From the NCBI RefSeq assembly GCF_000515275.1, contig NZ_KI911560.1, forward strand, positions 2,046,001 through 2,110,000: a stretch of 64,000 nt of DNA. Reading direction: 5' to 3'. The notes under the pieces are model-generated. The model searched no databases and was not told the origin of the DNA. It saw nothing but the letters and a program-made list of their open reading frames with translations. Both the position numbers and the translations under genes were made by a program. Below are positions 13,330 to 32,664 of the stretch, piece after piece. Position 1 is the stretch's first letter, and the number at the start of each line of letters is the position of its first letter. The DNA is from Methylophilus sp. 5 (GTDB lineage Bacteria > Pseudomonadota > Gammaproteobacteria > Burkholderiales > Methylophilaceae).

Positions 13330-13422
13330 TGCGAGTCCTGTTGTCAATTTGTTATGTGCAGTCTAGCGGTGTTTGACTGGCATCGCCACTACGCAAATTG
13401 ACGTATTTGTCCTACACCCCCC

Positions 13423-16341: not shown

Positions 16342-16456
16342 TTTGATCGACCATCAAAGGTTGATTGGACACTAAGCAATCATCGGTAATACACGCAGTA
16401 CTTATCACGATTTAATTTTTGAAGTTAATTGATTTATCCATAAAGGAGAAGATGTA

Positions 16457-17695
16457 ATGAGTACCTTAAACAGACGAGGTTTTATCAAAGGCGCAATGTT
16501 AGGTGCCATGATGGCGGCAGGTCTCGTTACTGGCCACGCCTTTGCTGCAGACTTTCCAACAGCAAAAGTAAACACTACCGGCTTGGCTGTGACAGACACA
16601 ACGGTGAAAGTAGGTATTCTGCATTCTGCCACCGGTACGATGGCGATTAGTGAAACTGGCTCTATCCAGGCTGAAAAACTGGCGATTGAGCAAATTAACG
16701 CCATGGGCGGTATTTTGGGTCGCAAGATCGAAGTTGTGCAGGAAGATGGCGCTTCTGACTGGCCTACTTTTGCTGAAAAAGCGAAAAAATTACTGGAAAA
16801 AGACAAAGTAGCTTCTGTGATGGGTTGCTGGACATCTGCTTCACGTAAGGCCGCGTTGCCAGTGTTTGAAAAAGACAATGGTTTGCTGTTCTACCCAACC
16901 TTCTATGAAGGCCTTGAGCAATCCAAAAACGTGTTCTACACCGGTCAAGAAGCAACACAGCAAATTTTGGCAGGCTTAGACTGGATTGCTAAAGAGAAAA
17001 AAGCCAAAACGTTTTACCTGATTGGTTCTGACTACATCTGGCCACGTACTTCGATGAAAATTGCGCGTAAACATATCGAGCAACATCTGGGCGGTAAAGT
17101 GGTGGGTGAAGAGTACATCGCTTTGGGTGACACGCAATTTGGTTCTGTGATCAACAAAATCAAACTGAAAAAACCTGACGTGATTTACGCAGCGGTGGTT
17201 GGCGGTAGTAACGTGGCATGGTTCAAACAATTGAACGCAGCTGGTTTGAACTCAAGCAAGCAAACCATGTTGACCATCTCCGTGACTGAAGATGAAGTAT
17301 TGGGTATCGGCGGTGAAAACCTGGCTGGTTTCTACTCAGCAATGAAATACTTCCAGTCGCAAGACAATGATTCAAACAAGAAATTTGTTGAAGCATTCAA
17401 AAAACGCTGGGGTAAAGATGCTGTGATCGGCGACGTGACGCAAGCCGCTTACCTGGGCCCATGGTTGTATAAAGCGGCTGTTGAGCGCGCAGGTAGTTTC
17501 GACGTAGATAAAGTGCAAGCTGCATTGCCTGGCTACGAGTTTAAAGATGCACCTGAAGGCCCTGTGACTGTAGAAGCTAACCATCACCTGACAACCAAAC
17601 TGCGTATTGGTCAGTGGGGCAAAGATGGCCAGGCGAAAGTGGTTTACACCTCTGACTATATCAAACCGGATCCATTTCCAAAAGGCTACCAATAA
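16457..17695 (+). CDS. fmdD: Short-chain amide/urea-binding periplasmic protein (FmdD/UrtA)
   Basis: A 412-residue binding protein of the AmiC/UrtA group. The export signal has a twin-arginine look (NRRGFIKGA) and ends after GHAFA. The mature protein carries VKVGILHSATGTMAISETG near 53-71, GGILGRKIEVVQEDGASDWP near 91-110, and the UrtA-typical GCWTSASRKAALPVFE near 130-145. It delivers short-chain amides and urea to the FmdE-FmdF permease. A ribosome site (aaaggag) precedes the ATG. A strong hairpin follows the stop, suiting the higher molar need for binding protein over permease. Confidence 0.93.
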   Translation: MSTLNRRGFIKGAMLGAMMAAGLVTGHAFAADFPTAKVNTTGLAVTDTTVKVGILHSATGTMAISETGSIQAEKLAIEQINAMGGILGRKIEVVQEDGASDWPTFAEKAKKLLEKDKVASVMGCWTSASRKAALPVFEKDNGLLFYPTFYEGLEQSKNVFYTGQEATQQILAGLDWIAKEKKAKTFYLIGSDYIWPRTSMKIARKHIEQHLGGKVVGEEYIALGDTQFGSVINKIKLKKPDVIYAAVVGGSNVAWFKQLNAAGLNSSKQTMLTISVTEDEVLGIGGENLAGFYSAMKYFQSQDNDSNKKFVEAFKKRWGKDAVIGDVTQAAYLGPWLYKAAVERAGSFDVDKVQAALPGYEFKDAPEGPVTVEANHHLTTKLRIGQWGKDGQAKVVYTSDYIKPDPFPKGYQ

Positions 17696-18025: not shown

Positions 18026-18943
18026 ATGTTTGGTTATTCGATGGCAGATATAGGCAATATTGTGGTGATGCAGGGCTTTTCAGGCCTGAGCATGTTTACA
18101 GTGTTGCTGCTGATGGCACTTGGTCTCGCGATTATTTTCGGCCAGATGGGCGTGATTAATATGGCACATGGTGAGTTTATGACCATCGGTGCGTATACCA
18201 CGGTCCTGCTTTCCAAAGTAGCCGCGACTTACGGCTTCACAAACTACTACTTTGTGTTTGCCATTGCGATTGCCTTTGTACTGGCGTTCGCGGTTGGCTA
18301 CTTTATTGAATTTATTATGATCCGGCACCTCTACAAGCGGCCGCTGGATACCTTGCTGGCCACCTGGGGCTTAAGCCTGGTCATGCAGCAGATTTTCCGT
18401 TCGACCTTTGGCGCGAAAGAAGTCAGTGCCGAGTTACCTGAGTGGATGCTGGGTTCTTTTAAGCCCACGCCTGATATTGATATCCCGATTAACGGTGTGT
18501 TCGTAATGGTGCTGGCAGCGCTGGTGACTTTCGGTGTGTATATGTTTATGTACAAGTCACGCTGGGGCCTGCGTGTGCGTGCCACGGTGCAAAACCGTAC
18601 CATGGCCGGCGCAGTCGGTATCAATACCGCCAAAGTTGACCGGGTCACCTTTGCGCTGGGTTGTGGCATTGCCGGTATCGCAGGCGCAGCCTTTACCACC
18701 ATTGCCTCTACCGGCCCGACCACAGGGACTTTGTACATCGTGGACAGCTTTATGGTGGTGGTGTTTGGTGGTGCAGCCAGCATTGTCGGTACGATTGCCT
18801 CGGCCTTCGGTATCGCCCAAGCGCAATCTATCTTGCAATTCTTTATGACCAGCTCCATGGGTAAGGTGTCTACCTTGCTCGTCATTGTCACTATTCTGAT
18901 GATGAAGCCGGAAGGTTTGTTTGCCTCCAAACTGCGTAAATAA
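18026..18943 (+). CDS. fmdE: Amide/urea ABC transporter permease (FmdE/UrtB)
   Basis: A 305-residue LivH-type inner-membrane permease. Typical features: LGLAIIFGQMGVINMAHGEF near 32-51 and the UrtB-like MFMYKSRWGLRVRATVQNRT near 173-192, with the coupling loop VVFGGAASIVGTIASAF near 247-263. It would form the amide/urea channel with FmdF. An aaggag site precedes the ATG. It is separated from fmdD by a hairpin and a palindromic repeat and from fmdF by a smaller hairpin. Role firmly supported by the cluster. Confidence 0.93.
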   Translation: MFGYSMADIGNIVVMQGFSGLSMFTVLLLMALGLAIIFGQMGVINMAHGEFMTIGAYTTVLLSKVAATYGFTNYYFVFAIAIAFVLAFAVGYFIEFIMIRHLYKRPLDTLLATWGLSLVMQQIFRSTFGAKEVSAELPEWMLGSFKPTPDIDIPINGVFVMVLAALVTFGVYMFMYKSRWGLRVRATVQNRTMAGAVGINTAKVDRVTFALGCGIAGIAGAAFTTIASTGPTTGTLYIVDSFMVVVFGGAASIVGTIASAFGIAQAQSILQFFMTSSMGKVSTLLVIVTILMMKPEGLFASKLRK

Positions 18944-18950
18944 CCATGAG

Positions 18951-18987
18951 TATGGCACCCCGAACAAAGTGGCGTTAGGGTGCCATA
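18951..18987 (+). promoter_or_regulatory. Intercistronic hairpin fmdE-fmdF
   Basis: A 10-bp stem, tatggcaccc at 18951-18960 and gggtgccata at 18978-18987, with a 17-base loop, 8 bases after the fmdE stop. No T run follows, so message processing or stability is a more likely role than termination. Confidence 0.5.
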
Positions 18988-19057
18988 AGTTAGAAGACGT
19001 ATTAAGTCTTTTAACTTGCCGCAATAGAATCAACGCATCAACAGAGGAGAAATCTTG

Positions 19058-20353
19058 ATGACCGTATGGGAAAAAATGAAAGCCAGTAACTTACTGGGGG
19101 GAAAAGAAGGCGTGATCGGCCTGGCTGTATTGGCCGCTGTCATCTTCGTCGTCCTGCCATTAGGCGTGGATATTTTCCGCCTGAACCTGATTGGTAAATA
19201 CCTGACTTACGCGTTTGTGGCGGTAGGTCTGGTGATGTTGTGGGGACATGGTGGTATTTTGAGCTTGGGCCAGGGTATTTTCTTTGGCCTGGGTGGGTAT
19301 GCAATGGCGATGTTCCTCAAGCTCGAAGCCTCTGATCCGCTGAGTACCAAGATTCAGTCTACACCGGGGATTCCTGACTTTATGGACTGGAACCAGCTCA
19401 CTGCCTTACCCTGGTTTTGGGAGCCGTTCAAAAGCTTGCCGTTCACCATCTTTGCGGTGCTGACTATCCCGGCGTTGTTCGCTTACATCATCGGTTACGC
19501 CATGTTTAAACGCCGTGTCGGCGGCGTCTACTTCTCTATCATTACCCAGGCGGTTGCCTTGATTCTGAGCATCCTGATTGTCGGCCAGCAAGGCTACACC
19601 GGCGGTGTGAACGGCATGACCGATTTACGTACCATGCTGGGCTGGGATATTCGTACAGACTCGGCCAAATATATTCTCTACTTTGTAAATGGCCTGTTGT
19701 TGTTCGGTGCGATTTTCCTCTCGAAATACATCATGAGCAGCAAGTTTGGCATGTTGTTGCTGGCCATGCGCGATAAAGAAGAGCGCGTACGTTTCTCTGG
19801 CTATGACGTCTCTAATTTTAAAATCTTTATCTTCTGCTTTGCCGCCATGTTGTCCGCCGTTGGTGGCGCGATGTTTACCTTGCAAGTCGGCTTTATGTCA
19901 CCGTCTTTTGTCGGCATTGTGCCTTCGATTGAGATGGTGATTTTCTGTGCCGTGGGCGGTCGTGCTTCGCTGATTGGTGCGGTGTACGGCACCTTGCTGG
20001 TCAATTACGGTAAAACAGTCTTCTCCGAAAACTATCCTGAAATGTGGTTATACCTGATGGGTGGGTTGTTTATTGCTGTGGTGATGTTTTTCCCTAGCGG
20101 CCTGGCTGGTATCTGGGATAAATATGCGACCAAATATGGCTGGTTCAAAGACAAGGCTAAAGTAAAAAAGCCTGAGGTAAGTACTTCTGAGGGTGAAGCA
20201 CCAGCAGTACTTACCGACACATCCCCTGAAACAACCCACGAATCAACCACGGCCACTGAATCTACCGATGAGGCCAGCAAAAAAGTCACGCGCAAGAAAG
20301 CGGATAAAGTATCTGCGATCGACAGCCACAAATTGAAAGGAGCAGAAGCATGA
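19058..20353 (+). CDS. fmdF: Amide/urea ABC transporter permease (FmdF/UrtC)
   Basis: A 431-residue LivM-type permease. The ATG at 19058 is chosen because the aggaga ribosome site is suitably spaced; a TTG one codon earlier is less likely. The hallmark LWGHGGILSLGQGIFFGLGG is near residues 61-80 and the coupling loop CAVGGRASLIGAVYGTLLVN near 297-316. The last 65 residues form a hydrophilic tail rich in Thr, Glu, Ser and Lys, longer than in most LivM proteins and probably disordered in the cytoplasm. It pairs with FmdE. The end overlaps urtD by 4 bp. Confidence 0.92.
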   Translation: MTVWEKMKASNLLGGKEGVIGLAVLAAVIFVVLPLGVDIFRLNLIGKYLTYAFVAVGLVMLWGHGGILSLGQGIFFGLGGYAMAMFLKLEASDPLSTKIQSTPGIPDFMDWNQLTALPWFWEPFKSLPFTIFAVLTIPALFAYIIGYAMFKRRVGGVYFSIITQAVALILSILIVGQQGYTGGVNGMTDLRTMLGWDIRTDSAKYILYFVNGLLLFGAIFLSKYIMSSKFGMLLLAMRDKEERVRFSGYDVSNFKIFIFCFAAMLSAVGGAMFTLQVGFMSPSFVGIVPSIEMVIFCAVGGRASLIGAVYGTLLVNYGKTVFSENYPEMWLYLMGGLFIAVVMFFPSGLAGIWDKYATKYGWFKDKAKVKKPEVSTSEGEAPAVLTDTSPETTHESTTATESTDEASKKVTRKKADKVSAIDSHKLKGAEA

Positions 20354-21093
20354 GTAATACCGACTTCGTCTTGGCAGTAGAAGATTTAACCGTCTCCTTC
20401 GATGGCTTTAAAGCGGTGGATAGCCTCACCATGTATATCGACAAAAACGAATTGCGTGTGCTGGTGGGCCCCAACGGCGCCGGTAAAACCACGGTGCTGG
20501 ATCTTATCTGCGGTAAAACCAAATCCACCGCTGGCTCGATCAAGTTTAACAATACCGAGCTGACCAAACTGTCTGAGCACGAAATTGTGCGCTCTGGGGT
20601 TGGCCGCAAGTTTCAGAACCCGTCAATTTACGAAAACCTGTCTGTTTACCAAAACCTGGAGGTTTCTTACCCGAAAGGGCGTGGCGTGTTTGGCAGCCTG
20701 ACGTTCAAGCGTACCCAAGAGGTAGAAGACCGGGTGCGCAAGGTCGCCGAGGACATCATGCTCACCGAGTTTTTAGACATGGAATCTGCCTTGCTCAGCC
20801 ACGGCCAGAAACAATGGCTGGAAATCGGCATGTTGCTGATGCAAGAGCCTGAGCTGTTGATGCTGGATGAGCCAGTGGCCGGCATGAGTGCCAAAGAGCG
20901 CGACCAGACGGCTGACTTGCTTAACCGTATCTGCCAGAACCGCTCGGTGATTGTGATTGAGCACGATATGGAGTTCGTTAAAAAGATTGCCCACAAAGTG
21001 ACAGTATTGCACCAAGGAAAAATCCTGGCTGAAGGGCCCATGGAAAAAGTGCAAGCTGACGAAAAAGTGATCGAAGTCTATCTGGGTCATTAA
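20350..21093 (+). CDS. urtD: Urea/amide ABC transporter ATPase UrtD
   Basis: A 247-residue ATPase. Walker A GPNGAGKTT at residues 39-47, signature variant LSHGQKQWLEIGMLL near 149-163 (the LSHGQ form is typical of UrtD), Walker B LLMLDEPVAGM near 169-179, switch histidine in VIEHDMEF. The start overlaps the fmdF stop (ATGA), so the two are translationally coupled. With UrtE it drives import of amides and urea bound by FmdD. The fmd work covered the genes up to fmdF; the ATPases follow directly here. Confidence 0.95.
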   Translation: MSNTDFVLAVEDLTVSFDGFKAVDSLTMYIDKNELRVLVGPNGAGKTTVLDLICGKTKSTAGSIKFNNTELTKLSEHEIVRSGVGRKFQNPSIYENLSVYQNLEVSYPKGRGVFGSLTFKRTQEVEDRVRKVAEDIMLTEFLDMESALLSHGQKQWLEIGMLLMQEPELLMLDEPVAGMSAKERDQTADLLNRICQNRSVIVIEHDMEFVKKIAHKVTVLHQGKILAEGPMEKVQADEKVIEVYLGH

Positions 21094-21121
21094 TTGAATT
21101 GGGCCAATAAAGGAGCACAGC

Positions 21122-21811
21122 ATGTTTGAAATTGAAAATTTGCAGGTGAGTTATGGCCAAAGCCAGGTCATTCATGGCCTGAACTTCAAAGCCAACAAAA
21201 ACGAAACCCTGGCGATTATGGGCCGCAACGGCATGGGTAAAACCACCTTGTTTAAATCACTGATGGGCATTTTGCCAAGTAAAGCGACTAAAGCAACCGT
21301 CGACGGTGTTGATCTGCAGGGGGCTGCCACGCATGATAGGGTCATGAAAGGCCTGGCCTATGTGCCACAAGGGCGCTGGATTTTCCCGAATATGACAGTG
21401 CAGGAAAACATCGAAACCGGGTTGGAGAAATCCGGTTCTGGTGAAATTCCTGATGATATTTTTGCCTTGTTCCCAGTCTTGCATGAAATGCGCAAACGTA
21501 AAGGCGGCAACTTGTCCGGCGGTCAGCAACAGCAACTGGCCATTGCCCGTGCGCTGGTGACCAACCCCAAAGTATTGTTGCTAGATGAGCCGACCGAAGG
21601 CATTCAACCATCAATCATCAAAGATATTGCCAAGGTACTCAACGAAATCCGCAAAATGCGTGAAATCACCATCATTGTTTCTGAACAGGTGTTGAGCTTT
21701 ACCATGGAGGTTGCCGACCGTATTATCGTCATCGACAAGGGCCGTTTTATTCATGAAGATACCCGTGATAATGTCGATGCCGCCAAGGTGAAAAGTTACC
21801 TCTCTGTTTAA
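21122..21811 (+). CDS. urtE: Urea/amide ABC transporter ATPase UrtE
   Basis: A 229-residue ATPase, second nucleotide-binding subunit of the amide/urea importer. Walker A GRNGMGKTT near residues 35-43 (the GRNGMGKT form is typical of UrtE), signature LSGGQQQQLAIARAL near 132-146, Walker B VLLLDEPTEGIQPS near 153-166. A ribosome site aaaggag precedes the ATG. It is the last transporter gene; a palindromic repeat separates it from ureD. Confidence 0.95.
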   Translation: MFEIENLQVSYGQSQVIHGLNFKANKNETLAIMGRNGMGKTTLFKSLMGILPSKATKATVDGVDLQGAATHDRVMKGLAYVPQGRWIFPNMTVQENIETGLEKSGSGEIPDDIFALFPVLHEMRKRKGGNLSGGQQQQLAIARALVTNPKVLLLDEPTEGIQPSIIKDIAKVLNEIRKMREITIIVSEQVLSFTMEVADRIIVIDKGRFIHEDTRDNVDAAKVKSYLSV

Positions 21812-21898: not shown

Positions 21899-21946
21899 AA
21901 GAATTAAAAAATAATATTCTTGATTTGTCTGTGGCATGATGCGGTG

Positions 21947-22813
21947 ATGGATGATTTGAAGCATACGGCAACTTCGCCAGCGCAAACGAAAGCAACAAAA
22001 AACTGGCAAGCGAGGTTGGAACTCGGCTTTTCCAAGCGTGACGCGCGCTCTTACCTGGCACATCGCCTGCATAAAGGGCCACTGGTGGTGCAAAAGTCAT
22101 TGCATCCCGAAGGTGAGGCTATTTGCCATGCCGTGATCGTGCATCCGCCAGGCGGTGTGGCGGGCGGCGACGCCTTGCAATTGCAGGTGACGGTAGGCGC
22201 TGGCGCACAGGCCTTGTTGACAACCCCCGGCGCAGGCAAATGGTATAAGGCCAATGGCACACTGGCTTCGCAGGCGCTAACATTTACCTTAGAGGCGGGT
22301 AGTGGCCTCGAGTGGTTGCCGCAAGAAAATATATTGTTTGATGCCGCCGAAGTGCAGTTTGCGGCCGAGATTAACCTCGCCGCTGATGCAACATTGGCCG
22401 CTTGGGATATCGTCTGCCTCGGGCGCCAGGCGCAGCAAGAAACCTGGCAGACCGGCGTCTATCAGTTAAAGCAACAGATCAGGCGCGATGGTCGCCTGAT
22501 CTGGAACGAGCGTGCACATATGCGCGCAGAAGATATACTCACTGCAAGTGGCGTTGGCTTGGGTGGCGCAGTGGTCTTTGGCACATTTTTAGTCTGTGCG
22601 GGCGCTGTGCCTGCAGATGTAGTACAGGCGTGCAGGGCAATCATGCCCGCTGGCGCCAAAGTTGGCATCACGGCATTGCCCGAGGTGCTTGCTATCCGCT
22701 ATGTTGGGCAGGCCTCGCAGCAGGCCAGGCAATATTTTGAGCAGTGCTGGCACATTTTGCGCCCCTGGTACTCTCGTCGTGCAGCGGTCAGACCGCGCAT
22801 TTGGAACACTTAA
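21947..22813 (+). CDS. ureD: Urease accessory protein UreD
   Basis: A 288-residue UreD (UreH) chaperone, which with UreF and UreG loads nickel into urease. The family core is visible: LHPEGEAICHAVIVHPPGGV, then GGDALQLQV near residues 63-90, the TTPGAGKWYK element near 103-112, and WLPQENILFDAAEVQF near 134-149. The ATG at 21947 is chosen because upstream frames begin only at weak TTG/GTG codons inside the repeat-flanking region; no strong ribosome site marks it. It is first in the urease operon, 27 bp before ureA. Confidence 0.92.
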   Translation: MDDLKHTATSPAQTKATKNWQARLELGFSKRDARSYLAHRLHKGPLVVQKSLHPEGEAICHAVIVHPPGGVAGGDALQLQVTVGAGAQALLTTPGAGKWYKANGTLASQALTFTLEAGSGLEWLPQENILFDAAEVQFAAEINLAADATLAAWDIVCLGRQAQQETWQTGVYQLKQQIRRDGRLIWNERAHMRAEDILTASGVGLGGAVVFGTFLVCAGAVPADVVQACRAIMPAGAKVGITALPEVLAIRYVGQASQQARQYFEQCWHILRPWYSRRAAVRPRIWNT

Positions 22814-22840
22814 CACAATCATTCTTAAAAAGACTCGGCG

Positions 22841-23143
22841 ATGGAACTCACCCCTAGAGAAAAAGACAAGTTACTGATATTCACAGCCGCGCTGTTAGCT
22901 GAGCGGCGTAAAGCGCGTGGACTCAAACTCAATTACCCGGAAGCGATTGCTTTTATCACCGCTGCTATTATGGAAGGCGCGCGCGATGGTAATACAGTGG
23001 CAGAGCTGATGAGCTTCGGCACCACGTTATTGTCACGCGATGACGTGATGGAAGGCGTGCCGGAAATGATTCCGGATATACAGGTGGAAGCGACCTTCCC
23101 GGATGGCACTAAGCTGGTCACGGTGCACCACCCCATTCCATAG
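22841..23143 (+). CDS. ureA: Urease gamma subunit
   Basis: The 100-residue structural gamma subunit of urease, full length for the family. It starts [20 protein letters not shown] and carries [18 protein letters not shown] near residues 29-46 and the closing [14 protein letters not shown]. It packs with UreB and UreC into the trimeric enzyme. A palindromic repeat, not the usual short spacer, separates it from ureB. Confidence 0.97.
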
Positions 23144-23145
23144 GT

Positions 23146-23313
23146 GTGAATGATGAAAATGGCGAATTGCGGCGTTGCGCGGTTTTTTAGTTACGGCATA
23201 ACCTTAAGGTTAGCCTACACTGAAACTACGTTTTCGAAATCCTCATGTACTACATGTACATTCCGGTTTCTGCGTTCCGTGCGCCTTGCACTTCATCCAT
23301 TTTGATCATTCAC
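23146..23313 (+). repeat. Intergenic palindromic repeat, copy A
   Basis: A 168-bp element between ureA and ureB. Its arms, gtgaatgatgaaaatgg at 23146-23162 and ccattttgatcattcac at 23297-23313, pair at 16 of 17 positions. The 117-bp core (23172-23288) matches copy B (25382-25498) at 111 positions without gaps and contains the near-palindrome gtactacatgtac. The arms differ from those of copy B. Confidence 0.85.
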
Positions 23314-23347
23314 TGATGCATCGATAAAAGTTCAATAGGCAAAAAAC

Positions 23348-23656
23348 ATGATTCCCGGCGAAATGCAGGTCGCAGCAGGCGACATCGAGTTAAACATAGG
23401 GCGTGAAACAGTGACGCTGGACGTGGCTAACAAAGGTGACCGGCCGATTCAGGTCGGGTCGCATTACCATTTTTATGAAACCAACGATGCCTTGGCGTTT
23501 GACCGCGCGCTGGCCTATGGCTGCCGCTTGAATATTGCGGCTGGCACCGCGGTGCGTTTTGAGCCAGGGCAGACGCGCACCGTGCAACTGGTGAAACTGG
23601 CCGGGGATAAAAGAGTGTATGGCTTTGCCGGACGCGTGATGGGAGCCTTGAAATGA
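23348..23656 (+). CDS. ureB: Urease beta subunit
   Basis: The 102-residue beta subunit of urease, full length. It starts MIPGEMQ and contains [20 protein letters not shown] near residues 28-47, the family core, and ends in [18 protein letters not shown] sequence. The start is 34 bp after the palindromic repeat; the usual aaggag is not clear. Its end overlaps ureC by 4 bp. Confidence 0.97.
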
Positions 23657-25356
23657 GCATCAAGATGGATAAACGCGCTTATGCCGAAATGTTCGGGCCA
23701 ACGGTAGGCGATAAAGTACGGCTGGCGGATACCGAGTTATGGGTAGAGGTGGAACAAGACTTCACGATTTATGGTGAAGAGGTCAAATTTGGCGGTGGCA
23801 AAGTGATTCGTGACGGCATGGGGCAAGGGCAGGGCTTAGCCGCTGAAGTGGCTGATACCGTCATTACCAATGCACTGATTATTGACCACTGGGGCATTGT
23901 TAAAGCCGATATTGGCATCAAGGGTGGTTATATTTCCGCCATTGGTAAAGCAGGGAATCCTGATATTCAACCCGGCGTGACCATTGCGATTGGTGCTGGC
24001 ACCGAAGTGATTGCTGGTGAAGGCATGATCATCACCGCCGGTGGCATTGATACGCATATCCACTTTATTTGCCCGCAGCAAATTGAAGAGGCTTTGATGT
24101 CTGGCGTGACCACCATGATCGGTGGCGGCACCGGGCCGGCCACGGGCACCTTTGCTACCACCTGTACACCGGGGCCCTGGCATATTCACCGCATGTTGCA
24201 GTCTGCTGATGCGTTCCCCATGAATCTGGGTTTTTTGGGTAAGGGTAATGCCAGCCTGCCAGAGCCTTTGCGTGAGCAAGTCCGCGCGGGCGTCATCGGC
24301 CTCAAGCTGCACGAAGACTGGGGCACCACGCCCGCAGCGATTGATAACTGCCTGAGCGTAGCCGACGAGATGGATGTGCAGGTGGCGATTCACTCAGATA
24401 CGCTGAATGAATCCGGCTTTGTGGAAACGACCATAGGCGCGTTTAAAGGCCGCACGATACACACCTTTCATACCGAAGGCGCAGGCGGCGGTCATGCGCC
24501 GGATATTATCAAGGCGGCCAGCCAGCCCAATGTGTTGCCGTCGTCAACCAACCCGACACGGCCGTTTACCGTTAACACCATCGATGAACATCTGGATATG
24601 CTGATGGTGTGCCATCACCTAGATCCAGCCATTGCTGAAGACATTGCGTTTGCCGAAAGCCGCATTCGCCGTGAAACGATTGCCGCTGAGGATATTTTTC
24701 ATGACCTCGGTGCGTTCTCGATGATGTCGTCAGATTCACAAGCCATGGGGCGTGTGGGTGAGGTAATTATTCGTACCTGGCAGACGGCGCATAAGATGAA
24801 AATCCAGCGCGGGCCGTTGGCGGAAGATGTGCCGGGCAATGACAACTTTCGCATCAAGCGCTATATCGCCAAATACACGATTAATCCGGCCATTACGCAC
24901 GGCGTTTCGCATGTGGTGGGCTCAGTCGAAGTCGGTAAGCTGGCTGATCTGGTGGTGTGGAAGCCCGCCTTTTTTGGCGTAAAACCATTTACCATTATCA
25001 AAGGTGGCATGATTGCCGCCGCGGCCATGGGCGACCCAAATGCGTCTATCCCGACGCCGCAGCCTGTGCATTACCGCCCGATGTTTGGCGCTTATGGCGG
25101 TGGCTTGAAAACCGCGGTGACCTTTATTTCGCAGGCTGGGCTGGATAACCCTGAAGTACACGCATTAGGCTTGCAAAAGCCACTGGTGGCGGTGAAAGGT
25201 ACACGTGACGTGAAAAAAACAGACATGGTGCACAATACCTGGATGCCCAACATTGAGGTTGACCCGGAAACCTATGAAGTGTTGGCCGATGGCATGCCGC
25301 TGGTGTGCGAGCCAGCCGAAGTACTGCCGATGGCGCAACGTTATTTTCTATTTTGA
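23653..25356 (+). CDS. ureC: Urease alpha (catalytic) subunit
   Basis: The 567-residue catalytic subunit, full length. It hydrolyses urea to ammonia and carbamate using two nickel ions. Visible active-site elements: [11 protein letters not shown] near residues 133-143 (nickel histidines), the carbamylated lysine in GLKLHEDWG near 216-224, [10 protein letters not shown] near 244-253, [13 protein letters not shown] near 270-282, and the flap cysteine in MVCHHLDP near 318-325. All key residues are present, so the enzyme should be active. Coupled to ureB by ATGA overlap. A palindromic repeat follows before ureE. Confidence 0.98.
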
Positions 25357-25523
25357 TCAATGGCTATATGGGCAAATTTCTGCGTTGCGCGGTTTTTTAG
25401 TTGCGGCATAACCTTAAGGTTAGCCTACACTGAAACTGCGTTTTCGAAATCCTCATGTACTATCTGTACATTGCGGTTTCTGTGTTCCGTGCGCCTTGAA
25501 CTTTATCCCGTTCGCACATTGAT
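25356..25523 (+). repeat. Intergenic palindromic repeat, copy B
   Basis: A 168-bp element between ureC and ureE, the same length and orientation as copy A, with the core at 25382-25498 differing from it at six positions. Its outer arms (atcaatg at 25356-25362, cattgat at 25517-25523) pair with each other and then decay inward. They share no sequence with the arms of copy A. Confidence 0.8.
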
Positions 25524-25542
25524 AGGCGATTGAAACTTTAGA

Positions 25543-26043
25543 ATGATTCACTTAACCGAACGTATTACCGTGAGCGGCCATATTAACGACAGCCTGGAGC
25601 TGCCGTTTGATCAGCGCCAAAAAAGCCGCCTGCGCGTCATATTGGCCTCAGGCAAAGAGGCTGCGCTATTTTTAACGCGCGGCATCATTTTGCGTGGGGG
25701 CGATTTACTTAAATCAGAAGAGGGCATGGTGGTGCAGATTGTTGCCGCACAAGAGCCGGTTTACAACGTGATTGCACCAACGCCACGTGCGTTGATGTGC
25801 GCGGCTTATCACTTAGGCAACCGTCATGTGCCGTTGCAGATTGGTGATGGCTGGTTGCGCCTCGAGCAAGATTATGTGCTCAGGGATATGCTGCTGGGAT
25901 TAGGCATGCAAGTGAGCGAAGTGCATGCCCCGTTTGAGCCAGAAGCAGGTGCTTACGGTGGTGGTCACAGGCATGGCCACGATGAGGATGGTTTGCAGGC
26001 GTTACGGCCACGTATCAAAGCGCGGGGCAGCGAGCATGGCTGA
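25543..26043 (+). CDS. ureE: Urease accessory protein UreE
   Basis: A 166-residue nickel metallochaperone that hands nickel to the UreG-UreF-UreD complex. The N-terminal peptide-binding domain and the C-terminal domain (RALMCAAYHLGNRHVPLQIG near 86-105, with the conserved metal histidine in NRH) are intact. A short His-rich segment near 141-148 (GGGHRHGHDED) probably buffers nickel. It overlaps ureF by 8 bp. Confidence 0.95.
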   Translation: MIHLTERITVSGHINDSLELPFDQRQKSRLRVILASGKEAALFLTRGIILRGGDLLKSEEGMVVQIVAAQEPVYNVIAPTPRALMCAAYHLGNRHVPLQIGDGWLRLEQDYVLRDMLLGLGMQVSEVHAPFEPEAGAYGGGHRHGHDEDGLQALRPRIKARGSEHG

Positions 26044-26719
26044 TGCCTTGGCACTGAGCCGTTTGCTGCAACTCGCCAGCCCTATGCTGCCGGTGGGCGC
26101 CTATTGCTATTCGCAGGGGCTGGAGTGGGCGATTGACTCTGGCGAAGTGAACAATGTAGCGACTGCCCAAGCCTGGATCGGTGACAGTTTGCAGATTTAT
26201 CATGCGCGTTTTGAGTTGCCTGTGCTTTATCAGCTATATCAGGCCTGGCAAATGGGCGACCTGCTGCAAGTGCAGCACTGGGATGCTTTTTATCAGGCCG
26301 GGCGTGATACGGCAGAAGGCTGGGCCGAGACGCGGCAGATGGGCTATTCGTTGCGCCGTTTGTTAAATGAATTAAAAGAGATGCCGGCGGCACTGGTGGC
26401 ACAACTCAACACCTTGGATGCACCGGCTTTTCCAACCATGTATGCCGCTGTCGCCCAGCATTGGCAGATTGCTCATGAGCAAATGTTGCATGGCTACGCC
26501 TGGGGCTGGTTAGAAAACCAGGCCAGTGCTGCCATGAAAGCCGTACCGCTCGGGCAAGTGGCCGGGCAAACCATTTTGCTCGCCTTGGGCGAACAATTAC
26601 CGCCGGTCATACAAGCCGCCATGCAGTTGCCGGAGGATGAAATGAGCAACTTTAATCCCTTGCTCAGCATTGCCGGATGTCAACACGAAACACAATACAG
26701 CAGGTTATTTAGATCATGA
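26036..26719 (+). CDS. ureF: Urease accessory protein UreF
   Basis: A 227-residue UreF, an all-helical scaffold for the UreD-UreF-UreG activation complex. The ATG at 26036 is chosen because it gives the canonical start leading to [20 protein letters not shown] near residues 10-29; the frame is open further upstream but only inside ureE. It ends near the conserved [12 protein letters not shown]. The stop overlaps ureG (ATGA). Confidence 0.95.
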
Positions 26720-27369
26720 AAATACATACCCAGTTTGAGTCCCCCACGCCCGCCGTCACTGACTACAAAGAGCCATTGCGGGTGGGCATTGGTGGCCCGG
26801 TTGGCTCAGGCAAAACCGCACTGACCCTCGCGCTTTGCCAGCGCCTGCGAGAGACCTACAATATCGCGGTGGTGACCAATGATATTTACACCAAGGAAGA
26901 TGCCGAGTTTTTAACGCGCAATGAAGCGCTGACGCCAGAGCGTATTATCGGTGTTGAAACCGGCGGCTGTCCGCATACCGCGATTCGTGAAGATGCGTCT
27001 ATGAATCTCGAAGCGGTGGACCAGTTGAGCAAGCGCTTTAAAACGCTGGATATTGTGTTTGTTGAAAGTGGCGGTGATAACCTGGCGGCGACCTTCAGCC
27101 CGGAGTTGTCTGATTTAACGATTTATGTGATTGATGTGGCTGCCGGGGAGAAAATCCCGCGTAAAGGCGGCCCCGGCATCACCAAGTCTGATTTGCTCGT
27201 GATCAACAAGATAGACTTGGCACCCATGGTAGGCGCTTCGCTGGAGGTCATGGATCAGGATGCCAAACGCATGCGTGGCGAAAAGCCATTTGTGTTCAGC
27301 AACCTTAAAAGCGGGCAAGGGCTGGAAGACATCGTAAAGTTTATTGAGCAGCAAGGCCTGATGCTTTGA
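26716..27369 (+). CDS. ureG: Urease accessory GTPase UreG
   Basis: A 217-residue SIMIBI-class GTPase that delivers nickel in a GTP-dependent step. Walker [12 protein letters not shown] near residues 26-36, [15 protein letters not shown] near 54-68, the nickel-binding Cys-Pro-His in [17 protein letters not shown] near 80-96, [17 protein letters not shown] near 114-130, and the base-specificity NKID near 159-162 are all present. The stop codon ends on the first base of a large palindromic hairpin. Confidence 0.97.
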
Positions 27370-27471
27370 ACATTGGCACTGCGCGTCCGTGGCGGCGTTG
27401 TATCGGCTTGCCGTACTAGTATGTATTGTCTGCGCCGATACGCCTCGCCACAAACGCGCATTACCAATGTT
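27369..27471. repeat. Palindromic hairpin after ureG, copy D
   Basis: A 103-bp stem-loop starting at the last base of the ureG stop codon. Arms 27369-27406 and 27435-27471 pair along almost their whole length (aacattgg / ccaatgtt at the tips, gtggcg / cgccac inside). The loop holds gtactagtatgta, similar to the core of copies A-C. It may be a shorter relative of that family and a message-end stabiliser. Confidence 0.75.
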
Positions 27472-27550
27472 GGCCCTTAAATCAATATAGAAAATTTGGT
27501 GGGTGAACGACTTTACTCATCGTGAATGCAGTTCGTTTGGAGAAGATTGA

Positions 27551-28114
27551 ATGAAAAAAAATATTCTGTTAGCTATTGCCACGCTGGTCGCATCCACCAG
27601 CGCGTTTGCCCATCCAGGTCACGGCCTGGAGTCTGGCTTTGCGGCAGGCTTTCTGCACCCACTCACAGGCTGGGATCACTTGCTGGTGATGTTGTCACTC
27701 GGTGTCTGGGCCGCGCGGCGTCCGCAGGGGCAGGGTTGGCAGTTGCCTGTGATGTTTGTGGTGGCGATGGCTATTGCCGCTTTCACCGCGATGAGCTGGT
27801 TATCTGCTTCACTGGCTGAGTTACTGGTCGCCGCCAGCGTATTGGTGATGGGCGGTTTGTTGTTGGCAGAGGTGGCTTTATCACGCGGTATTCAGCTCGC
27901 AGGTGTCGCGGTGATCGCCGCCGCCCATGGCTATTTGCATGGCGTTGAGTTAGGTAGTCATTGGACCGCGCTGGCTGGTATGGTACTGGCCACTGCGCTT
28001 TTGCATGGTTTGGGTTGGTGGTTGGGCCGTCAGACACAGCCTTGGGTACAGTCTGCGTCTAAGCTGTTGGGCGGCTTGATGCTGGTGTTTGGCGCCAGCT
28101 TGCTCTGGGCCTAA
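27551..28114 (+). CDS. HupE/UreJ-family nickel permease
   Basis: A 187-residue inner-membrane protein of the HupE/UreJ family, thought to import nickel. A cleavable signal ends after TSAFA, so the mature protein begins HPGHGLESGFAAGFLHPLTG. This N-terminal histidine cluster followed by GWDHLL is the family's metal motif. Six hydrophobic segments follow. It has a ribosome site (ggagaag) and lies behind the urease genes, where it would supply nickel. A terminator follows. Confidence 0.9.
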   Translation: MKKNILLAIATLVASTSAFAHPGHGLESGFAAGFLHPLTGWDHLLVMLSLGVWAARRPQGQGWQLPVMFVVAMAIAAFTAMSWLSASLAELLVAASVLVMGGLLLAEVALSRGIQLAGVAVIAAAHGYLHGVELGSHWTALAGMVLATALLHGLGWWLGRQTQPWVQSASKLLGGLMLVFGASLLWA

Positions 28115-28150: not shown

Positions 28151-28186
28151 AAAATGCGGATAAGTTTGTTATCCGCATTTTTTATT
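28151..28186 (+). terminator. Rho-independent terminator of the urease cluster
   Basis: Stem aaaatgcggata / tatccgcatttt with a short loop and a run of T after it, 37 bases after the permease stop. It separates the urease genes from the sensor kinase genes. Confidence 0.85.
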
Positions 28187-28306
28187 TGTGGCATGCTTTC
28201 ACATGCATTACGTCAATTAACGTAGTGATTGATTTTGTCACCTGCTCTAGCATAGCTTGGGGCGCTTATTTTCCTCTTACGGTCCCGTCTTTTTAAGGAT
28301 TGTTGA

Positions 28307-31300
28307 TTGTCACACCCGTCTGAAGTCTCACCCGTACCGCATGCCGAGCCGATACAGCGTATCGTCAAAATTCGGCGCGACTATAACAATTGGGTGGCGA
28401 ATGAAACCATAGAAGATTATGCGCTGCGTTACACGCCGCGTGCGTTTCGCAAGTGGTCTATTCTGCGGGTCTCGAATACGGCCCTGGGCGCGATTTCGTT
28501 TTTGGTGCTGGAGGCGATTGGCGGCACGATTACCATTAATTATGGCTTCCCTAATGCCTTGTGGGCGATTCTGGCCGTTGGCCTGATTATCTTTTTAACC
28601 GGCTTGCCAATTAGCTACTATGCCGCCAAATATGGCCTGGACATGGATTTGCTTACCCGCGGCGCGGGCTTTGGCTATATCGGTTCGACCATTTCTTCGT
28701 TTATTTATGCCTCGTTCACGTTTATTCTGTTTTCGCTCGAAGCGGCGATTATGGGCTATGCGCTCGAGCTGTATTTTCATCTACCGTTATATCTGGGCTA
28801 TCTGGTCAGTGCGTTGATTGTGATTCCGCTGGTGACGCATGGCGTGACCTTGATCAGCCGTATTCAGATGATCACGCAACCGATCTGGATTGCGCTGATG
28901 TTTTTGCCGTTTTTTGCCATTATCCAGATGGACCCGGATGTACTGCATCGCTTGAGTACGTTTGCGGGGGTCTCTACCGATGGCGGCCACTTTAACTGGG
29001 TGATGTTTGGCACGGCGACTGCTGTGGGGGTGGCGCTGATCCCGCAGATTGGCGAGCAGGTTGACTTTTTGCGCTTTATGCCCGAGCGTAACAAAGAAAA
29101 TTACTGGCGCTGGAACTTAGGCGTACTGATGGCGGGCCCGGGCTGGGTGATTCTTGGCATGCTCAAAATGTTGGCGGGGGCTTTGCTGGCTTACCTGGTG
29201 TATAACCGCGATATGCCGCTTAGCTCGGCGGTGAATCCTACCCATATGTACTGGGTCGGTTTTGAGCATGTGTTTAGTAATCACCAGGTGGCGTTAGCGG
29301 TGACGGCGCTGTTTGTCTGTGTGTCGCAAATCAAGGTCAATATGACCAATGCCTATGCGGGCTCGCTGGCGTGGTCCAACTTTTTTGCCCGCCTCACGCA
29401 TAGTCACCCCGGCCGCATTGTGTGGGTAGCTTTCAACGTCATGATCGCCATTGTGCTGATGGAGCTCAATGTATTTCAGGCGCTGGAAGAAATATTAGGC
29501 CTGTATGCCAATATTGCCATCGCCTGGATTGCCGCCGTGGTGGCTGACCTGGTGATTAATAAGCCGCTGGGATTAAGCCCCAAAGGCATTGAGTTCAGGC
29601 GCGCTTATTTATACGATATTAACCCGGTGGGTGTCGGCGCCATGTTTATTGCGTCGGCGATTTCGATTGCCGCTTATACCGGCATCATGGGCGTATTGGC
29701 GCAGTCGTTTTCTACTTTTATTTCGCTGTTTACCGCGTTGCTCATGTCGCCGCTGATTGCCTGGTACACCAAAGGTAAATATTACCTGGCCAGACAGCGC
29801 CCCACTTATTTGCAACCCTCGACCACCAAGCAATGTGTGATCTGTGAGCGCGAGTATGAGGTGAGTGACATGGCGCATTGTCCGGCCTATGGCGGTGCGA
29901 TTTGCTCACTATGCTGCTGCCTGGATGCGCGTTGCCATGATGCCTGCAAACCCCAGGCCAGACTGAGTGCGCAATGGGAGGCACTGAATAAAAAGTTTTT
30001 GCCGCCACGGTTATGGCCGCATTTAAATGGCGGCGTGGCGCACTTTTTGTTGCTGATGGTGATCGCCATGATTTTGTTTGGCGCCACCATCGGCTTGATT
30101 TACCTGCATGATGCGCTGACGGTCGGCCGTGAATACCCCGGGCTGATGCAGCACTTTCGCTCCGGGTATTTAAAAGTGTTTGTCGCTTTGCTGTTTTTGG
30201 GCGGCATCGTCGCCTGGTGGCTGGTGCTCACCTCTGCCAGTCGCCGTGTGGCGCAAGAAGAATCTAACCGGCAAACCGGGTTGTTGCTGGAAGAAATTGA
30301 GTCACATAAAAAAACCGATACGCAGTTGCAAAAAGCGCGCAGGCTGGCAGAAGAAGCCAACCAGGCCAAGAGCCGTTATATTACCGGCATTAGCCACGAG
30401 CTACGCACGCCGCTTAATAGCATTTTGGGCTATGCGCAGTTGCTCACCAATGACGACAGTATCCCTGAGCACCGCAAGCAGGCAATTAAAACCATTAGCC
30501 GCGGCGGCGAGCATTTGTTATCGCTGATTGAAAGCACATTGGATATTGCGCGCATTGAAAGCGGCAAGATGACGTTTGATGTTAAACCGCTGCATTTTCC
30601 AGAGTTTATTAGCCAGATGGTCAGCATGTTTGAGCTGCAGGCACAAAACAAAGGCCTGGCCTTTTATTTTGAGCAGCCAGGCAATTTGCCGGAGTACGTG
30701 CGTGCCGACCATAAGCGGCTGATGCAGATTCTGGTGAATATTTTAGGCAATGCCGTCAAATTTACCACCAAGGGCAGTGTGACTTTCAAGGTGAGTTATG
30801 CGCGTGAAATTGCGCAAATTGATATTGCAGATACCGGCCCCGGCATCGCACCTAATGAAGTCGAAAAAATCTTTGAGCCGTTTGAGCGCGGCAGTGCGGC
30901 AGATGTGGTTGGCATTGGCGGCACCGGTTTAGGCTTAACCATCAGTAAATTGCTCACGCAACTGATGGGGGGCGAAATGCAGTTTGATAGCGTGCTGGGG
31001 CAAGGCACGCGGTTTGAAATTCGCCTGTTTTTACCGCAGATTCGCGAAACCGCGCATTTGTCGAAAAAAGCCGTGCGCCAGCGCATTGGTTACGAAGGTC
31101 CTGTACGCACCATATTGGTGGTTGATAATGAGGAAGTTGATCGCGAGCTGTTGCGCGATGCCTTGCAGCCACTGGGCTTTATTGTGCATGAAGCAGGCAA
31201 CGGCCAGGCCTGTGTGAATCAATACCAGATGGTACATGCAGACTTGATTTTGATGGATTTAGCCATGCCGGTGATGGATGGCTGGGAGGCGGCTTATATT

Positions 31301-31735
31301 ATTCGCCAGGTGCATCAATCCAAATTGCCAATTGCCATTATCTCGGCCAACGCCTATGACCGTAGCCTGGATAACCAGGCCAAGATTCCGGCGCAGGACT
31401 TCTTTGTCAAGCCGGTGAATCTCGACGAAGTATTGGACTGGATAGGCAATCAGCTCGGTCTGACCTGGCGCTATGCCGATAGCGCTACCGCCAAGCTTGC
31501 ACCACCGCCATTGTCTGTGAGCGATGCTGATGCTATGCAACCTATTCCGGCGGCATTGCTCGAGAGCATGGGCCAGTTCGCGCGCATGGGCTACGTGAAA
31601 GGCGTGCGCGAGGTGCTGGCGACGCTGAACAGCGACTATGCGCAACATCAACCGTTCATTCACGCGTCACAACAGGCCATGGAACGCTTTGATTTTGCTA
31701 AACTGCAACGTTTGATTGAGGAGTACACCCAATGA
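28307..31735 (+). CDS. NCS1 permease-histidine kinase-receiver fusion sensor
   Basis: An 1142-residue hybrid sensor. Residues about 20-495 form a complete NCS1-type (nucleobase/urea/hydantoin) permease with about twelve membrane segments, starting RDYNNWVANETIEDYALRYT. Residues about 510-545 are cysteine-rich (CVICEREY, then CSLCCCLDARCHDACKP) and may bind zinc. Two more membrane segments lie near 575-645, then a short coiled coil, HisKA with SHELRTPLNSILGYAQLL (His697), HATPase_c with NILGNAVKFT near 810 and DTGPGIAP near 842, and a receiver whose acceptor is in ILMDLAMPVMDG near 981. Translation probably starts at TTG 28307, 7 bases after aagga. The last 4 bp overlap the response regulator gene. 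It probably senses a nitrogen compound through the permease part, most likely urea or an amide given the neighbours; this is inference. Confidence 0.9.
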   Translation: MSHPSEVSPVPHAEPIQRIVKIRRDYNNWVANETIEDYALRYTPRAFRKWSILRVSNTALGAISFLVLEAIGGTITINYGFPNALWAILAVGLIIFLTGLPISYYAAKYGLDMDLLTRGAGFGYIGSTISSFIYASFTFILFSLEAAIMGYALELYFHLPLYLGYLVSALIVIPLVTHGVTLISRIQMITQPIWIALMFLPFFAIIQMDPDVLHRLSTFAGVSTDGGHFNWVMFGTATAVGVALIPQIGEQVDFLRFMPERNKENYWRWNLGVLMAGPGWVILGMLKMLAGALLAYLVYNRDMPLSSAVNPTHMYWVGFEHVFSNHQVALAVTALFVCVSQIKVNMTNAYAGSLAWSNFFARLTHSHPGRIVWVAFNVMIAIVLMELNVFQALEEILGLYANIAIAWIAAVVADLVINKPLGLSPKGIEFRRAYLYDINPVGVGAMFIASAISIAAYTGIMGVLAQSFSTFISLFTALLMSPLIAWYTKGKYYLARQRPTYLQPSTTKQCVICEREYEVSDMAHCPAYGGAICSLCCCLDARCHDACKPQARLSAQWEALNKKFLPPRLWPHLNGGVAHFLLLMVIAMILFGATIGLIYLHDALTVGREYPGLMQHFRSGYLKVFVALLFLGGIVAWWLVLTSASRRVAQEESNRQTGLLLEEIESHKKTDTQLQKARRLAEEANQAKSRYITGISHELRTPLNSILGYAQLLTNDDSIPEHRKQAIKTISRGGEHLLSLIESTLDIARIESGKMTFDVKPLHFPEFISQMVSMFELQAQNKGLAFYFEQPGNLPEYVRADHKRLMQILVNILGNAVKFTTKGSVTFKVSYAREIAQIDIADTGPGIAPNEVEKIFEPFERGSAADVVGIGGTGLGLTISKLLTQLMGGEMQFDSVLGQGTRFEIRLFLPQIRETAHLSKKAVRQRIGYEGPVRTILVVDNEEVDRELLRDALQPLGFIVHEAGNGQACVNQYQMVHADLILMDLAMPVMDGWEAAYIIRQVHQSKLPIAIISANAYDRSLDNQAKIPAQDFFVKPVNLDEVLDWIGNQLGLTWRYADSATAKLAPPPLSVSDADAMQPIPAALLESMGQFARMGYVKGVREVLATLNSDYAQHQPFIHASQQAMERFDFAKLQRLIEEYTQ

Positions 31736-32664
31736 CCAGCCACAGCCATACCGTGTTAATTGTGGATGATGTGCCAGAAAATCTGGCCTATCTGCATGAC
31801 GCACTGGATGAGTCCGGCTACCAGGTCTATGTCGCTAACTCGGGCGAAATGGCATTGCAAGTGGCGCACCTGATGCAGCCGCATGTGATTTTAATGGACG
31901 CCATGATGCCCGGCCTCGATGGCTTTGCCACCTGCAGGCGCATCAAAGCAGCTGCAGAAACCCAGCATATCCCGGTGATTTTTATGACAGGCCTGACCGA
32001 AATCGAGCACGTCACCATGGCGTTTGATGCCGGTGGTGTCGATTATGTGACCAAGCCGGTGCGCCCGGCAGAAGTGTTGGCACGACTAAAAGCCCATGTG
32101 CAGAATGCGACCAAAATGCATCAGGCCACCTCTGCACTGGATGCCTTTGGCCAGGCGACCATTGCCATTTTGCCCACCGATAAACGCCTGGTGTGGCAAA
32201 CGCCACTGGCCAAGCAATACCTGGAACAGTATTTTGCCGAATGGGCAGCCAAAGAAGCCTATAGCGCGGTACAAACATTGCCGCCTATGATTTACCAATG
32301 GTTAGAAAGCTCTATCCAGCAGTTTTCCAGCGGGCAGTCCATGCAAACACTCAGTGTGAATCAGGGCAATGCGCGCTTGAGCCTGACGGTGGCCAATACC
32401 AGCGAAGAGCAATGGGTGGTGGTGCTACGCGAGCATTCAGACGAACTGCAAATTGAATCGCTAGGTAAAGTATTTCAATTGACCAAGCGCGAATCAGAGG
32501 TGCTGTACTGGACGGTCAAGGGCAAAACCAATAAGGATGTCGGTGAGATTTTAGGCACCAGCCCGCGTACCATTAATAAACACCTGGAGCATGTGTTCCA
32601 AAAACTGGGGGTCGAGACCAGAACGGCGGCGGCTTCACTGGTGGCGTCAAAAATCAAGTTCTAG
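31732..32664 (+). CDS. LuxR-type response regulator
   Basis: A 310-residue two-component regulator. The N-terminal receiver has the acid pair in VLIVDDVPEN, the acceptor aspartate in VILMDAMMPGLDGF near residue 57, and the lysine in YVTKPVRP near 107. A linker of about 110 residues follows. The C-terminal LuxR/NarL helix-turn-helix LTKRESEVLYWTVKGKTNKD is near 248-267, then TINKHLEHVFQKLGV. The start overlaps the hybrid kinase stop, so they form a phosphorelay pair. Plausible targets are the fmd/urt/ure genes next door; no binding sites were identified. Confidence 0.92.
   Translation: MTSHSHTVLIVDDVPENLAYLHDALDESGYQVYVANSGEMALQVAHLMQPHVILMDAMMPGLDGFATCRRIKAAAETQHIPVIFMTGLTEIEHVTMAFDAGGVDYVTKPVRPAEVLARLKAHVQNATKMHQATSALDAFGQATIAILPTDKRLVWQTPLAKQYLEQYFAEWAAKEAYSAVQTLPPMIYQWLESSIQQFSSGQSMQTLSVNQGNARLSLTVANTSEEQWVVVLREHSDELQIESLGKVFQLTKRESEVLYWTVKGKTNKDVGEILGTSPRTINKHLEHVFQKLGVETRTAAASLVASKIKF

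Follow-up and report, generated by a model that had tools for sequence, protein, structure and literature searches.

A permease–histidine kinase fusion behind the urease cluster of Methylophilus sp. 5: a probable transporter-derived receptor for urea and short-chain amides

Why is a complete permease joined to a histidine kinase directly behind a urease cluster? The question is raised by a 64,000 nt stretch of the genome of Methylophilus sp. 5 (NZ_KI911560.1, forward-strand positions 2,046,001 to 2,110,000; this whole stretch is called the window), which codes for such a fusion and for a LuxR-type response regulator downstream of it. An earlier note, made from the letters of the window alone, had proposed a regulatory system for urea or amide use. 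We consider it likely that the use of urea and short-chain amides is under the control of a receptor kinase derived from a transporter, together with its LuxR-type partner. Gene linkage at 80 of 94 related loci and a predicted operator shared by their promoters support the earlier proposal at the level of sequence.

The architecture described in the earlier note was confirmed: permease, a segment with nine cysteines, two further helices and a hybrid kinase form one frame of 1142 residues, which follows the urease cluster (ureDABCEFGJ ends at 28114, the kinase starts at 28307). With HisKA (residues 687-753) and its histidine, HATPase_c (801-909) and a Response_reg domain (936-1044) with its aspartate, the fusion is a hybrid sensor histidine kinase. 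H697, correctly named as the kinase histidine, is the phospho-acceptor and is kept in all 74 aligned kinases, and D984 in 72 of the 74, the other two having gaps; this alignment omits L018 and L023, whose kinases are truncated at a contig end, and L028, in which the frame is broken. The overlap with the LuxR-type regulator, also noted before, amounts to 4 bp, and the regulator itself has a receiver (REC, 8-119) and a GerE helix-turn-helix domain (249-303), as is typical of the LuxR/NarL type. At least 7999 proteins match residues 1-640 at E<=0.001, so that this part is not a product of chance. The C-terminal tail after the receiver has no Pfam match; the match of cyanobacterial hybrid kinases (L030-L046, L048) to the window kinase runs from about residue 639 through 1141 and takes in this tail.

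Relatives were collected from an even draw of the phylum, a class-level draw, a homologue search and plasmid lists, which together gave 94 kinase loci. The phylum draw comprised 299 genomes, 42 of which had a match to the permease part at E<=0.001; in G050, G175 and G194 the matches were distant carriers only. All 40 full-length kinase places from this draw were taken, G224 and G236 being left out as contig-limited or fragmentary. The class-level draw had matches in 17 of 369 genomes and contributed 16 further regions. The homologue search with the window kinase (best relatives 96% identical) yielded 30 loci that match the permease part; its other 50 loci, hybrid kinases devoid of this permease part, serve as controls. 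Nine kinase loci were hand-picked from plasmid lists. Three loci with only a free-standing permease (L159, L161, L171) were counted apart from the 94. Several loci share one genome, Methylophilaceae are over-represented, and neighbour genes were counted within the stretch examined for each locus.

Genes for UrtA, FmdA, urease or AmiE were found at 80 of the 94 kinase loci and at none of the 50 control loci, which are largely from other phyla and unmatched in gene content; two of the three loci with only a free-standing permease also have them. The tabulation of neighbours, which the earlier note had suggested as a check that could speak against its reading, thus did not place the homologues beside unrelated pathways. 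Among the 40 phylum-draw loci, UrtA is encoded in 35 and some urt, ure or fmd gene in 39. The one locus lacking them (L131) ends at a contig edge, yet has the predicted operator described below. A common gene order is fmdB-fmdA-urtEDCBA divergent from the kinase-regulator pair, and it occurs in the alpha, beta and gamma classes and on plasmids. In a second order, urease or urt-ure genes lie beside or ahead of the kinase. UrtA proteins encoded beside FmdA without urease are 68-80% identical to that of the window (27 of the 40 phylum-draw loci), those beside urease without FmdA 39-41% (7 of the 40). A match to UrtA at E<=1e-100 occurs in 126 of the 299 draw genomes, compared to 38 of the 39 queried genomes that have this permease protein.

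Some loci deserve separate mention. Of 549 plasmid records matching the permease family, 342 are from Klebsiella; one Klebsiella plasmid locus (L160) carries another formamidase and urtEDCBA divergent from the kinase-regulator pair. The permease-kinases of L151, L153 and L172 are short (874-988 aa), with neither a match to this regulator beside them nor an operator; L151 and L153 are near FmdA, and L172 has another receiver-type gene nearby. In Methylobacillus glycogenes (L028), frame breaks affect ureC, ureF, ureG and the kinase, perhaps by draft sequencing error.

The second line of evidence is a sequence shared by the promoters. Its consensus is the palindrome ATACGTCA-N2-TGACGTAT, a 7-2-7 inverted repeat. 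NarL sites have the same 7-2-7 layout. The pattern TACG-N8-CGTA occurs in 34 of 46 non-redundant divergent promoter regions, while the best gapped pair over 10 shuffle sets reached 10; none of the 46 regions is from the family of the window, and one 56-bp region (L112) and two redundant ones had been left out. A matrix fitted to the 46 regions scores 43 of them above 8 bits, which is circular, and was applied elsewhere at 14 bits. In 34 held-out sources (the 30 homologue-search loci, L159, L161, L171 and the window), it found 26 sites in 24 sources, all at most 500 bp upstream of a reference gene, with gene starts estimated by tblastn and the window porin and its divergent neighbour included in the reference set. 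No site was found at this threshold in the 50 control loci (880,722 bases). Outside the training regions, the training loci contain nine sites, all before FmdA (6), AmiE (2) or UrtA (1). Altogether, a site is present at 76 of the 94 kinase loci, in at most 43 of these through training.

The window has two predicted operators (Table 1), which are also the only places with the strict core TACGYNANNTNRCGTA in the entire 3.03-Mb genome; a reversed control pattern is found at four places. At loci with the kinase behind an urt-ure operon (L155, L156), the site is at the operon head; it is also present when about 2 kb or more separate UrtA from the kinase (L145, L148, L149), and in L158 it occupies the gap between a short-tail permease and the divergent kinase-regulator pair. 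The shared operator would thus tie the regulator, as its probable binder, to urea/amide promoters, and this tie together with the gene linkage supports control of the urea/amide genes. The genes might instead merely travel together while the pair regulates something else; the system does occur on many plasmids and could move as a block. We give this very little credence, given the nine operators before fmdA, amiE or urtA outside the shared promoter regions and the restriction of the strict core to two places of the genome, both in this cluster.

A looser pattern allowing one mismatch was rejected as unspecific (52 places in the own genome compared to 100 for the reversed control; 12 matches in the window, 12.1 expected). 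A weaker operator-like site (18982-19005, 10.7 bits) is located in the urtB/urtC gap, and a similar one is found in L004 at 830 (13.5 bits).

Several observations weigh against control of urea/amide genes by this system. No urea/amide neighbour was found at 14 of the 94 kinase loci in the stretch examined; some of these are near contig ends, not all (e.g., L174, L175, L177, L184). The comparison with the controls is weakened by their origin mostly from other phyla. No site above 14 bits was found at 18 of the 94 kinase loci. The absence of an operator site from five loci in which no match to this regulator adjoins the kinase (L151, L153, L172, L174, L175) speaks for the reading, but siteless loci that do bear the regulator exist as well, among them L020, L021, L024, L112, L144, L147, L177, L184 and L185. 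The urease loci with a free-standing permease (L159, L171) also lack a site above threshold. The strict pattern was run in five genomes and outside its own genome works in part: in G186 both of its two occurrences are away from the kinase, and G217 has none because the site there departs from the pattern. No consensus sigma-70 promoter was found at either operator of the window. Finally, the candidate pocket residues discussed below are placed by alignment at about 18% identity.

What kind of transporter the sensor part is derived from was not evident from direct searches. Pfam, NCBIfam and PDB sequence searches with the permease part were empty: PF02133 (NCS1) has no match at E<=10, neither for the protein of the window nor for any of 39 family members, and the family profile retrieves no solved structure at E<=10. 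Against a profile of five NCS1 relatives, the family profile aligned over 441 columns with an hhalign probability of 100 (E 2.6e-51). Two of the five match PF02133: L163, a "cytosine permease" (PF02133 1e-25; CodB 7qoa 5e-36; Mhp1 3e-7), and L157 (3.6e-9); the remaining three have no PF02133 match. Because of this profile-profile match, the permease part is, as judged from sequence profiles, a deep branch of the NCS1 superfamily, by homology over the whole transporter and not by the Pfam model. The earlier note was therefore right in calling it an NCS1 permease, though this is visible only by profile-profile comparison. An SLC5/SSS domain was not found, the permease part having no Pfam match at E<=10 and aligning to NCS1. 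Residues 499-681 gave chance-level Pfam matches only and no STAC match, which is a weak test as no STAC alignment was used. In an alignment of about 18% identity, not a structure, K343 aligns with S312 and N348 with N318 of Mhp1, which we take to be the Na2-site serine and the substrate asparagine, respectively.

The link to nucleobases and hydantoins that the earlier note had drawn from the NCS1 assignment received little support. As ligands these were rejected: hydantoinase-type genes were found only beside two distant, kinase-free NCS1 relatives that lack the cysteine tail, and once in Shinella (L113), about 2 kb past the regulator.

The free-standing homologues are more informative. Among the best 120 of 6215 matches, permeases about 550 residues long, 119 have the cysteine motif of the tail, the remaining one being a fragment; Acidithiobacillus and other acidophiles are represented among them. 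In four loci a free-standing homologue takes the place of UrtABCDE beside amidase or urease. In L170, the kinase-regulator pair is divergent from permease-fmdA-fmdB-amiE, with the permease in the UrtABCDE position, and the genome has no UrtA match at E<=1e-60. Methylovirgula L114 has fmdB-fmdA, kinase-regulator-permease and an amidase. L159 has a short-tail permease followed by ureEFGJDABC, and L171 has ureDABCEFG-permease-NicO nickel transporter, the tail again being shortened. The L171 genome has no match to UrtA, UT or AmiS/UreI, the UT absence being weak as the UT query matched no control genome; the genomes searched, G661 and G647, gave no UrtA, UT or AmiS/UreI match. The free-standing homologues thus resemble a urea/amide transporter of an undescribed kind, and because they replace UrtABCDE in these four loci, the permease part of the kinase was most likely built on a transporter for urea or short amides. 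A counter-example among the free-standing relatives is that of an Arthrobacter plasmid (L161, 12001-13569), which has no urea/amide neighbours and has almost wholly lost the tail cysteines.

How might a transporter have become a receptor? In a tree of 121 sequences, the permease parts of 89 kinases form one clade, with a support of 0.55, so that a single fusion clade is weakly supported. This clade is sister to 25 free-standing eight-cysteine permeases (0.99), and the short-tail type is outside. The free-standing permeases in the tree were 24 (every fifth) of the 119 full-length ones listed, L170 and four others; the comparison set for residues consists of the 25 and 4 relatives. F65, E69 and A351 are present in all 89 kinases; at these positions the 29 free-standing relatives carry Y, Q or F, and S, respectively. 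D68 is found in 29 of 29 free-standing permeases; the kinases have leucine in 84 of 89 cases and never aspartate. Four further kinases (L164, L170, L178, L181), which are not among the 89 and were compared separately, agree at positions 65, 68, 69 and 351, which makes 93 kinases in all. The exchanges Y65F and S351A and the shift of the acid from 68 to 69 suggest a transporter turned receptor.

These residues also bear on whether the permease part is a true transceptor that transports urea or amides and signals, with kinase output following flux, as proposed for CbrA. Most of the conserved positions are common to the free-standing permeases: 56 positions in residues 1-500 are invariant across 118 kinase and free-standing sequences, among them E145, Q247, E250, Q251, D253, R256, K343, N345, N348 and Y350, several of which are pocket candidates by alignment. 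CbrA itself takes up histidine and signals (PMC13022988, partial text). The uniform difference of the 93 kinases from the 29 free-standing relatives argues against transport by the sensor, as does the fact that a separate transporter (UrtABCDE or a free-standing permease) is usually near it, and we regard a transceptor as a doubtful alternative, albeit one to be taken seriously. At the 80% level, amide-linked (38) and urease-linked (32) kinases are not set apart by any position; the split was made by the stretch examined, so that Methylophilaceae count as urease-linked though the window has both. The residue pattern fits one class of ligand and a receptor with lost or changed transport coupling.

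The segment behind the permease part contains nine cysteines (residues 510-547), of which those at 510, 513, 525, 533, 536, 537, 543 and 547 are invariant in the 74 aligned kinases and in four more, C538 being the variable ninth. L158, L159 and L171 keep only CxxC and CSLC. Because the other four cysteines are lost together in these, the segment may comprise two separate metal sites, and the loss of a whole block fits two four-cysteine sites. Both the invariance and the joint loss could also be expected if the segment were the actual sensor, of zinc, an iron-sulfur cluster or nickel, with the permease as an anchor or carrier. We consider a metal or redox sensor improbable. The motif is present in 119 of the best 120 free-standing permeases, which have no kinase, and is thus part of the permease unit; next to amide operons it varies no more than next to urease, a nickel enzyme; and sensing by the cysteines leaves the constancy of the permease part unexplained. 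Nickel sensing in particular, which the earlier note had suggested for this segment, was rejected as unlikely because the cysteines are equally constant without a kinase and without urease, the latter in 38 kinases beside amide operons with no urease in the stretch. Our guess is that the segment has a structural role, or acts as a gate, between carrier and kinase.

For the receptor kinase we infer the following course of events from these sequence data. Urea or a small amide (formamide, acetamide) would bind in the central pocket of the permease part, which would no longer transport. The signal would pass through the eight-cysteine segment, probably cytoplasmic, and the two extra helices to H697 of the kinase, and the phosphoryl group would then move from H697 to D984 of the internal receiver and on to D56 of the regulator. 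The phosphorylated regulator would bind TACGTCA-N2-TGACGTA at two promoters, that of its own operon and that of the porin-fmdA-fmdB-urtABCDE-ure cluster, and may activate both. Instead of the amide itself, the signal could be a degradation product or the general nitrogen status, such as a shortage of ammonium; the fmd cluster of Methylophilus methylotrophus is indeed repressed by ammonia (PMC10781810, partial text). This is unlikely in our view: the permease part has homologues that stand in for a urea/amide transporter, and general nitrogen control could do without a dedicated permease fold beside every operon.

Beyond the receptor reading, a wider one is conceivable, which we put forward tentatively, as somewhat less probable than not. 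Within the NCS1 superfamily there would be a so far undescribed family of transporters for urea and short-chain amides, whose eight-cysteine tail is cytoplasmic and maybe has two metal sites; one lineage would have been fused once to a kinase, lost the acid that couples transport (D68), and become a urea/amide receptor that governs these operons across Pseudomonadota.

The features of the window are listed in Table 1. The genes from the porin through ureJ form one cluster in a single direction upstream of the kinase. Terminator-type matches like the hairpin between ureJ and the kinase number 3 in 500 bases scanned, with 1.0 expected. A gene for a lipoprotein-like protein of 211 residues (12712-13347, reverse strand) is divergent from the porin and shares with it the gap that bears the operator at 13386; relatives of this gene, which has no Pfam match, adjoin the porin in L019 and L027.

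Table 1. Features of the window around the permease-kinase fusion (positions in the window)
Feature	Position	Strand	Evidence
Outer-membrane porin, FmdC-like by position	13492..14667	+	NCBIfam: weak match (98 bits; cut-off 150) to porin ExtI; no Pfam match
fmdA, formamidase	14709..15932	+	NF045496, 793.5 bits (cut-off 500)
fmdB, zinc-ribbon protein	16003..16344	+	PF09723, 3.5e-12; tblastn match to annotated FmdB
urtA/fmdD, amide-type binding protein	16457..17695	+	TIGR03407, 516.8 bits (cut-off 492.75)
urtB, urtC, urtD, urtE	18026..21811	+	TIGR03409 and TIGR03408 above cut-off; ABC_tran for D and E
Urease cluster ureD-A-B-C-E-F-G-J	21920..28114	+	Pfam UreD, Urease_gamma, Urease_beta, Urease_alpha, UreE, UreF, cobW/UreG, HupE_UreJ
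Terminator-like hairpin and T run between ureJ and kinase	28151..28181	+	13-pair stem, consensus match only
Predicted operator 1, core TACGCAAATTGACGTA at 13390-13405	13386..13409	.	Upstream of the cluster-heading porin; 25.7 bits, matrix from other loci
Predicted operator 2, core TACGTCAATTAACGTA at 28209-28224	28205..28228	.	78 bp before the kinase start; 17.0 bits, matrix from other loci
Permease-kinase fusion, 1142 aa	28307..31735	+	Open reading frame, TTG start; Pfam domains
NCS1-type permease part, residues about 17-500, multi-helix carrier look	28355..29806	+	hhalign to NCS1 relatives
Eight-cysteine segment, residues 510-547	29834..29947	+	Conservation in kinases and free-standing permeases
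Two further membrane segments, hydrophobic peaks about 580-598 and 624-642	30044..30232	+	Hydropathy
HisKA (H697) and HATPase_c	30365..31033	+	Pfam
Internal receiver domain (D984)	31112..31438	+	Pfam
Response regulator, 310 aa, receiver and LuxR/GerE DNA-binding domain	31732..32664	+	PF00072, 1.2e-26; PF00196, 1.5e-17

The design recalls CbrA-type proteins but uses another transporter family, as the earlier note had pointed out; the permease part is NCS1 by profile and has no SLC5 match. CbrA, CrbS and RpuS (SLC5-STAC kinases) likewise combine, according to the partial accounts at hand, an N-terminal LeuT-fold transporter with a histidine kinase for nutrient control. In contrast to them, the fusion of the window is of the NCS1 type, has the eight-cysteine segment and two helices at the position of their STAC domain, for which a weak test gave no match, and belongs to a kind of kinase linked to urea/amide operons. 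CbrA has a lysine in its Na2 site (PMC13022988, partial text), and K343 of the window, which by way of alignments corresponds to a Na2 ligand position, may be comparable. Ks-Amt5 of Kuenenia also uses an uptake transporter module as a sensor coupled to a kinase, whereas its module is an Amt domain, its ligand is ammonium, and no cysteine segment is mentioned in the available part of the account (PMC5764959).

Among transporters, the permease part shares its fold family, by profile-profile comparison, with the NCS1 permeases (CodB, Mhp1, PF02133); it differs in being below Pfam detection and in its eight-cysteine tail, apparently replaced Na2 ligands and urea/amide linkage. The regulator resembles the NarL/LuxR family in having REC and GerE, but the half-site TACGTCA and the partner differ.

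The order porin-fmdA-fmdB-urtABCDE in the window matches the description of fmdCABDEF from M. methylotrophus, which is induced by formamide and urea (PMC10781810, partial text). Within its available part, the only regulator which that account mentions for the cluster is a putative positive one, and its text contains neither "histidine kinase" nor "two-component" (0 occurrences). For Ectopseudomonas guguanensis G3, the same kind of arrangement (urtABCDE, histidine kinase, LuxR regulator) is reported as annotation only; the permease part, operator and function are undescribed in the available part of this account (PMC13296017). Among the titles listed from the open-licence literature, with two of the lists limited to 20 of 44 and 20 of 23, no functional description of the kinase, the operator or the free-standing permeases was found, which agrees with the suggestion of the earlier note that the system may be little described.

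That amide and urea genes of methylotrophs are induced by their own substrates has been known since the 1990s (PMC10781810, partial text, citing work of 1998). The system described here offers a concrete candidate sensor, regulator and DNA site for this induction, and adds another large LeuT-fold family to the transporter-kinase fusions. As matched transporter and receptor versions exist together with a short list of residues that separate them, the change from transporter to receptor becomes testable. The free-standing homologues, in turn, may represent a new type of urea/amide transporter for those urease- or amidase-bearing bacteria in which UrtABCDE, UT (its absence weakly tested) or UreI is not recognised.

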